Positions 48,888 through 50,081 of a stretch of DNA of 64,000 nucleotides are shown piece after piece. Position 1 is the first letter of the stretch, and each line of letters begins with the position of its first letter. Under the pieces are notes generated by a model that did no database searches, had not been told where the DNA came from, and was given only the letters and a program-made list of their open reading frames with translations. This DNA comes from an uncultured Solimonas sp. (GTDB lineage: Bacteria; Pseudomonadota; Gammaproteobacteria; Nevskiales; Nevskiaceae). The stretch spans positions 15,080 to 79,079 of the forward strand of contig CAMLDZ010000001.1 of assembly GCA_946478985.1 (NCBI GenBank), given 5' to 3'. The translations under genes and the position numbers were made by a program.

Positions 48888-50081
48888 TTACGCCAGGATC
48901 TTGGTGACGACGCCGGCGCCGACGGTGCGGCCGCCTTCGCGGATCGCGAAGCGCACGCCGTCTTCCATCGCGATCGGGTTGATCAGCTCAACCGTCATCT
49001 GCACGTTGTCGCCCGGCATCACCATTTCCTGTTCGAACTGGATGCTGCCCGTCACGTCCGTCGTGCGGAAGTAGAACTGCGGGCGGTAGCCCTTGAAGAA
49101 CGGCGTGTGACGACCGCCCTCCTCCTTCGTCAGAACGTACACCTCGCCATTGAACTTGGCGTGCGGCTTGATCGAACCCGGCTTGCACAGCACCTGGCCG
49201 CGCTCCACGTCTTCCTTCTTCGTGCCGCGCAGCAGAATGCCCACGTTGTCGCCCGCCTGCCCCTGGTCCAGCAGCTTGCGGAACATTTCAACGCCCGTGA
49301 CGATCGTCTTGGCCGTGTCGCGGATGCCGACAATCTCGACTTCCTCGCCCACCTTGACGATGCCGCGCTCGATACGGCCCGTCACCACCGTGCCGCGGCC
49401 CGAGATCGAGAACACGTCTTCGATCGGCAGCAGGAAGGCCTTGTCGGTCTCGCGCTCCGGCTCCGGAATGAAGGTGTCCAGCGCGTCGTACAGCTCCTGC
49501 AGCTTGGCAACCCACTCGGCCTCGCCCGCAATCGCCTTCGTCGCCGAACCACGGATCACCGGCGTGTTGTCGCCGTCGTAGCCGTACTTGGCCAGAAGAT
49601 CGCGAACTTCCATCTCGACCAGGTCGAGCAGTTCAGCGTCTTCCACCAGATCGCACTTGTTCAGCCACACCACAATCTTCGGAACGTTCACCTGCTTGGC
49701 CAGAAGAACGTGCTCGCGCGTCTGCGGCATCGGGCCGTCAACCGCCGACACCACCAGGATCGCGCCGTCCATCTGCGCCGCGCCCGTGATCATGTTCTTC
49801 ACGAAGTCCGCGTGTCCCGGGCAGTCCACGTGCGCGTAATGGCGGTTCGCCGTTTCGTATTCCACGTGCGAGGTCGCGATCGTCAGAATCTTCGTCGCGT
49901 CACGGCGTCCCTGCGATTCCGAGGCCTTCGCCACCTGATCATAAGGAACGTACGTGCCGCCAAACTTGTCCGCCGACACCTTCGTCAGCGCCGCCGTCGT
50001 CGTCGTCTTGCCGTGGTCAACGTGGCCAATCGTGCCCACGTTCACGTGCGGCTTCGTGCGTTCAAACTTACCCTTTGCCAT
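48888..50081 (-). CDS. tuf: Elongation factor Tu with an atypical switch I region
   Basis: 397 residues from the ATG at 50081 (GGAG 8 bases upstream). GTPase carrying aminoacyl-tRNA to the A site. G1 GHVDHGKT (19-26), G3 DCPGH (86-90, catalytic His90), NKCD (141-144), and domains 2-3 (SISGRGTVVTGRIERG, PGSIKPHAKFNGEVYVLTKE, GYRPQFYFRTTDVTG) are normal. Switch I is not: between DQ (48-49) and TSHVEY (70-75) there are 20 residues instead of 15, and the near-invariant RGITI is replaced by KILTI in ATKILTIAT; the key Thr (67) is kept. A 2-residue deletion lies near QFEQEMVMPGDN. The reading frame is open with normal codon use. Confidence 0.97.
   Translation of the reverse strand: MAKGKFERTKPHVNVGTIGHVDHGKTTTTAALTKVSADKFGGTYVPYDQVAKASESQGRRDATKILTIATSHVEYETANRHYAHVDCPGHADFVKNMITGAAQMDGAILVVSAVDGPMPQTREHVLLAKQVNVPKIVVWLNKCDLVEDAELLDLVEMEVRDLLAKYGYDGDNTPVIRGSATKAIAGEAEWVAKLQELYDALDTFIPEPERETDKAFLLPIEDVFSISGRGTVVTGRIERGIVKVGEEVEIVGIRDTAKTIVTGVEMFRKLLDQGQAGDNVGILLRGTKKEDVERGQVLCKPGSIKPHAKFNGEVYVLTKEEGGRHTPFFKGYRPQFYFRTTDVTGSIQFEQEMVMPGDNVQMTVELINPIAMEDGVRFAIREGGRTVGAGVVTKILA

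Follow-up and report, generated by a model that had tools for sequence, protein, structure and literature searches.

The window, by which we mean the whole stretch of 64,000 nucleotides that was analysed, carries on its minus strand a tuf gene that is preceded by three tRNA genes and followed by the ribosomal protein genes rpsJ and rplC. Read along the minus strand, the locus contains the following features:

50548..50633, minus strand: tRNA-Tyr(GTA)
50414..50487, minus strand: tRNA-Gly(TCC)
50299..50374, minus strand: tRNA-Thr(GGT), the first gene upstream of tuf
48888..50081, minus strand: tuf, elongation factor Tu of 397 aa, with its ATG start at 50081 (TIGR00485, 702.1 bits)
50004..50027, minus strand: G1/P-loop GHVDHGKT, residues 19-26, invariant in a mixed alignment of 40
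49875..49934, minus strand: long, non-canonical switch I, residues 50-69, VAKASESQGRRDATKILTIA, with the same form in 119/120 listed matches
49887..49901, minus strand: insertion of five residues, D61-A-T-K-I65 (MAFFT), at or one residue beside the canonical Gly59-Ile60
49881..49883, minus strand: Thr67, T in 210/210 long forms and invariant in the mixed alignment of 40
49812..49826, minus strand: G3 DCPGH, residues 86-90, including His90, invariant in the mixed alignment of 40
48475..48792, minus strand: rpsJ (S10), directly 3' of tuf, located by tblastn
47823..48461, minus strand: rplC (L3), at most 71% identical to sampled Gammaproteobacteria and 45-46% to four Gemmatimonadota loci

In minus-strand translation the tuf frame consists of 397 codons and one stop, which is terminal at 48888, and is otherwise open. 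Its product scores 702.1 bits against the NCBIfam EF-Tu equivalog model TIGR00485 (cut-off 522.4) and possesses GHVDHGKT (G1), DCPGH (G3), NKCD (G4), T67 and H90, and the gene context, with tRNA-Tyr/Gly/Thr upstream and rpsJ-rplC downstream, is likewise that of an EF-Tu gene. Thr67 presumably corresponds to E. coli Thr61 (mature numbering), the residue that senses Mg/GTP, and His90 to E. coli His84, and L66 is taken to occupy the place of Ile60, the hydrophobic gate residue. Compared with canonical EF-Tu, in which switch I has RG[IM]TI ahead of the conserved Thr, the window tuf reads KILTI, with a net gain of five residues and without RGITI. Its loop fits the pattern VAKAS-x-x-x-GRRD-x-x-KI-x-TI of the long switch I class and not the pattern GGTVRDxxK[IT]VTI of the short-insert class of Opitutaceae, where the window reads SQGRRDATKILTI and is three residues longer. 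MAFFT places the insertion at D61-I65, after the RG of RGITI, and HMMER opens the gap one residue earlier; R59, the Arg preceding the insertion, does not vary in the mixed alignment of 40. The initial annotation had described residues 50-69 (VAKASESQGRRDATKILTIA) as a switch I with five extra residues, no RGITI and Thr67 kept, lying in an open frame with the other G motifs intact, and both statements are borne out by the translation (one terminal stop; G1, G3 and G4 present) and the alignment. The product is most likely a normal housekeeping EF-Tu whose G2 loop takes an alternative form.

tRNAs like those of the Tyr/Gly/Thr leader are found in the tufB operon of Gammaproteobacteria (PMC8046335). 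The window has in 48475-50633 a hybrid order, in which a tufB-like leader (tRNA-Tyr-Gly-Thr) precedes tuf and rpsJ follows it in a tufA-like manner. Such an order would result from recombination between two tuf copies at the tufA and tufB loci, and it fits a tuf-mediated rearrangement. The neighbouring rplC is, by its sequence, gammaproteobacterial, with 62% identity to a Lysobacter locus versus 45-46% to four Gemmatimonadota loci. A close Nevskiales relative was sought in the class samples (two of 369 genomes, and one of 303 in which an empty result does not show absence) and none was found there, the best rplC identity being 71%. Four Gemmatimonadota loci have the long tuf ahead of rpsJ and, upstream of this tuf, a weak EF-Tu-like match consistent with fusA; in a Lentisphaerae locus and a Verrucomicrobiota locus the long tuf lies between tRNA-Thr and tRNA-Trp. 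Between tuf and tRNA-Thr of the window, a 33-nt stretch that includes the tRNA-Thr 3' end (50295-50327) is repeated at 50181-50213 (97%), and an inverted partial copy of it is found at 50256-50275; the repeated stretch is probably the remnant of a tRNA duplication.

Elsewhere in the window, a 1158-aa ORF (59508-62984) has a C-terminal half with histidine kinase and receiver domains. The N-terminal half gave no Pfam match and appears by eye to be membrane-spanning and permease-like, and the protein is a possible transporter-sensor fusion. It is followed by a LuxR-type response regulator (62981-63886). At 53206-59487, a formamidase/acetamidase (PF03069) lies near a set of genes that by eye resembles a urea-type ABC transporter and in which the ORF 58081-59487 encodes a periplasmic binding protein (PF13433).

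The long form of switch I is real, intact and strongly conserved. A protein search against EF-Tu, which the initial annotation had proposed, scored the 8000 candidates sharing most words with the window tuf and listed 120 of them, and its outcome (119 of the 120 listed proteins long, the remaining one canonical) is therefore no measure of frequency. Listed matches with names belong mostly to Solimonas and to Sinimarinibacterium, Fontimonas, Stagnimonas, Hydrocarboniphaga, Panacagrimonas and Stenotrophobium, which we take to be kin of Solimonas, and one is a MAG named Rhodanobacter. With a Verrucomicrobiota long form as query, 119 of the 120 proteins listed were again long and one was canonical, and the named matches were Kiritimatiellae. 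Because the long loop is shared by many database proteins in two separate searches, on many contigs and in named species, and by many genomes of two further phyla, an assembly or sequencing error can be dismissed as its origin; nothing was found in favour of one. The Rhodanobacter-named MAG protein (P0119) is long, but the genome of a Rhodanobacter strain (L077) has the canonical form, pointing to mis-binning, mis-naming or a further transfer. Two canonical rows among the long-form matches (P0108 and P0299) were not taken as evidence, P0108 being an internally duplicated canonical sequence, and a Gemmatimonadaceae-titled record with a beta-like canonical EF-Tu (L073) was placed under 'beta/other' as a probable binning error.

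Among 210 distinct long-form sequences, 13 of the 20 switch I positions are invariant (V50, A51, K52, A53, S54, G58, R59, R60, D61, K64, I65, T67 and I68) and position 62 is the most variable; the loop is therefore under constraint. Outside the loop, the only sites separating long from canonical forms, at thresholds of at least 70% in each long group and at most 30% in each canonical group, are L145 and D153 (presumably E. coli 139 and 147), which covary weakly. A study on EF-Tu replacement describes helix D (144-156) as a site contacted by EF-Ts and L7/L12 (PMC5574714). The initial annotation had proposed altered kinetics, EF-Ts dependence or resistance to switch-binding inhibitors; the loop may have such effects, and the position of D153 in helix D is a weak hint for EF-Ts alone.

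The distribution of the loop was read from genome samples. An even sample of 121 Gemmatimonadota genomes gave an EF-Tu match in 82, of which 79 were inspected for the loop (G043, G076 and G093, in which the match does not reach the loop, were left out), with 48 long, 29 canonical and 2 unclassifiable. In the Verrucomicrobiota-phylum sample of 115 genomes, all 111 with an EF-Tu match were inspected, and 45 are long, 50 canonical, 15 of a third form (14 tallied plus G584, which was scored 'other') and 1 unclassifiable. This third form, GGTVRDxxK[IT]VTI (e.g. G506 and G595), lacks three residues relative to the long form, to which it is related; a search with a third-form query retrieved Opitutus terrae and other Opitutaceae, and the pattern fits 117 of the 120 proteins listed. 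Two tuf copies were read in eight Gemmatimonadota genomes and are both long in all eight; in most other genomes with two EF-Tu matches one copy was read per genome. In a set of seven long-form genomes from other phyla, each gave a single EF-Tu match. The best 80 loci of the genome-contig scan comprise 73 canonical and 7 long ones, the latter from five Gemmatimonadota, one Lentisphaerae and one Verrucomicrobiota. In the Gammaproteobacteria sample (EF-Tu match in 214/369 genomes), all 30 loci kept are canonical, with a best identity to the query of 77%. The idea of a lone oddity falls with the Gemmatimonadota and Verrucomicrobiota-phylum counts, since the long form is common in these two other phyla and the initial annotation had named its commonness in unrelated genera as what would refute it. 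The suggestion of a lineage-specific form holds in part, in that every listed Solimonas-group protein is long (a long-form query would not reveal canonical copies in the same genomes) and all 30 loci kept from the sample of other Gammaproteobacteria are canonical.

Trees were calculated from 97 rows drawn per group with a fixed seed, the window and 18 Solimonas-group rows being picked by hand. When switch I is masked in the whole-gene tree, the long and canonical rows of Gemmatimonadota group together, as do the Verrucomicrobiota-phylum rows, and the Solimonas group forms its own clade beside Proteobacteria and Gemmatimonadota. AU tests, for which the groups were picked after the trees had been seen, rejected a single clade of all long forms for the whole gene (p 0.011) and did not reject a clade of Solimonas and Gemmatimonadota long forms (p 0.61). 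In the masked G-domain tree the Solimonas group branches from within the long forms of Gemmatimonadota (100/98; 99/97 for the inner set), and its grouping with Proteobacteria is rejected (p 0.03). This nesting is not firm, because the test does not reject a clade of all Gemmatimonadota, long and canonical, that leaves the Solimonas group out (p 0.106). In the tree of domains II-III the Solimonas group stands beside gamma- and betaproteobacteria (98/96, the bootstraps of this and the G-domain tree being not quite settled), and a Gemmatimonadota origin of these domains is not rejected (p 0.44, 0.105 and 0.15). Trees of domain II alone and of domain III alone gave no resolution.

Mean identity to Gemmatimonadota long forms versus gammaproteobacteria is 0.82 versus 0.76 for the G domain, 0.76 versus 0.81-0.83 for domain II and 0.83 versus 0.80 for domain III. 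The marker sites N132, I184, W190 and T318 are Gemmatimonadota-like and the sites K241, K257 and M296 are not, these Gemmatimonadota states having a frequency of 0.00 in 119 Solimonas-group rows; of the proteobacterial marker states, S227 alone is kept (1/4). By column permutation the G domain resembles Gemmatimonadota (P 0.006) and domain II Proteobacteria (P 0.0003), with domain III resembling neither, and a harsher circular-shift control gave 0.13 for the G domain and 0.066 for domain II. From these comparisons, the Gemmatimonadota link of the G domain is fairly well supported, and a patchwork gene with a Gemmatimonadota-like G domain and a proteobacterial domain II is suggested. That the G domain goes with Gemmatimonadota but domains II-III with Proteobacteria suggests transfer between phyla and recombination, a reading of which the AU tests support only part.

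A gene without mosaicism would be expected if it had been transferred whole from a Gemmatimonadota relative, the look of domain II then being due to fast change in Gemmatimonadota. Such a transfer is unrejected by the AU tests of the whole gene and of domains II-III, and domain III is slightly nearer the Gemmatimonadota long forms; we nevertheless regard it as unlikely, given the support for Proteobacteria in the domains II-III tree (98/96) and the 0.00 frequency of K241, K257 and M296 in the 119 Solimonas-group rows. Alternatively, two old tuf paralogues with different loops might have been sorted by phylum, with gene conversion evening out the remainder, which is conceivable although we would not expect it. 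The masked tree, which groups Gemmatimonadota and Verrucomicrobiota by phylum and not by form, the rejection of a single long-form clade (p 0.011) and the position of the long tuf before rpsJ in four Gemmatimonadota loci versus between tRNA-Thr and tRNA-Trp in Lentisphaerae and Verrucomicrobiota agree with such sorting, but both copies are long in all eight Gemmatimonadota genomes in which two were read (one was read in most others), and the G-domain placement of the Solimonas group requires a transfer regardless. Separate origins of the same loop in different phyla would accord with the at least five form changes needed on the masked tree; that 210 sequences from three groups share 20 nearly identical residues is, however, unexpected from convergence, which is very improbable.

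The Lit protease cuts EF-Tu between Gly59 and Ile60 (PMC3014915). The long switch I might thus be an escape allele, which removes the bond cut by Lit of prophage e14 and maybe protects against other switch-I effectors, and which selection by phages or competitors spreads and keeps. In line with this, the target bond lies at or one residue beside the insertion, Gly59 is lost and discrete alternative switch I forms coexist inside phyla. Against it, the Lit family (PF10463) was found in only 2/121 Gemmatimonadota and 0/115 Verrucomicrobiota-phylum genomes, where the zero does not show absence, as 0/14 controls matched; one of the two genes is in a long-form genome and has an internal stop, and the other is in a genome without an EF-Tu match. 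Co-occurrence of Lit with the long form found no support in these samples, the Lit genes (2/121 and 0/115 genomes) being too few for an association. We consider the escape allele doubtful, and it is equally a long shot that EF-Tu exists as a few discrete, exchangeable switch I alleles, of which the long one moves between phyla by recombination on its G domain because it blinds switch-I attackers such as Lit-type proteases. If true, this allele exchange would turn the loop that is best conserved in translation into a polymorphic target in an arms race.

Taken together, the gene is probably the housekeeping EF-Tu of a Solimonas-like gammaproteobacterium, with an alternative long switch I, a Gemmatimonadota-like G domain and recombination with the native gene; a second, canonical tuf may lie elsewhere in its genome. 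In this EF-Tu the effector loop RGITI is replaced by the conserved segment GRRD-x-T-K-I-L-T-I, and the five additional residues would be taken up in the helical A'/A'' portion of switch I. The normal EF-Tu cycle would proceed with T67, H90, R59 and the V21/L66 pair standing for T61, H84, R58 and V20/I60. The G domain may have been donated by a Gemmatimonadota-like source, and the incoming G domain may then have been joined by recombination to the native gene, of which a proteobacterial stretch would remain over domain II; support for both steps is moderate. An ordinary cycle is likely because the catalytic residues are kept, the form is the sole EF-Tu match in seven genomes and the loop is constrained, and the sole-copy status in these seven long-form genomes suggests that the long form delivers aminoacyl-tRNA to the ribosome. 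AlphaFold2 was unreliable across switch I and did not show the loop usefully for either the long form or a canonical control. Among the PDB alignments compared (one and four) no solved chain has the long loop, and the ranges of the other chains listed fit a missing insert.

To our knowledge, an RGITI-bearing switch I is taught as near-universal in elongation factors. Here, RGITI is replaced in 48/79 Gemmatimonadota and 60/111 Verrucomicrobiota-phylum genomes and in one gammaproteobacterial group, and a G domain has apparently moved between phyla. Such natural cross-phylum exchange is surprising because, of the foreign or ancestral EF-Tus put in place of the native gene of E. coli, 12 with 69-82% identity failed and four with 84-94% succeeded (PMC5574714). 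Nature provides in the long form a case against which the demands on switch I can be compared, in GTP sensing, in triggering by the ribosome and in exchange by EF-Ts; the long form also cautions against treating tuf as a simple marker in phylogeny. A description of the long form, of its spread over three phyla or of its exchange was not found in the open-access literature searched. Alternative loops in the EF-Tu of some phyla have a precedent: Jenkins and Fuerst reportedly described an 11-residue motif of planctomycete EF-Tu in 2001.

With canonical EF-Tu (TIGR00485; E. coli, Thermus), the window protein shares the three domains, G1, G3 and G4, the equivalents of Thr61 and His84 and the rpsJ/tRNA context; it differs in its switch I, which has five more residues and in which RGITI is replaced. 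The short-insert EF-Tu of Opitutaceae (IAKGGTVRDxxK[IT]VTI), as in Opitutus terrae and its kin, likewise lacks RGITI and has RD-x-[ST]-K-x-[LV]-T-I in common with the long form, but is three residues shorter and without the KASESQG part. Planctomycete EF-Tu presumably resembles this short-insert form. Archaeal EF-1alpha recombinants, reportedly due to intragenic recombination between distant lineages (Inagaki and others, in 2006), are alike in the mode of recombination and in the protein family, but they belong to Archaea and have no tie to a switch I form. Another divergent EF-Tu form, actEF-Tu or Streptomyces Tu3, has been described as a second, condition-specific copy (Atkinson, 2015; PMC4342817), whereas the long form is the sole EF-Tu match in seven genomes of other phyla.
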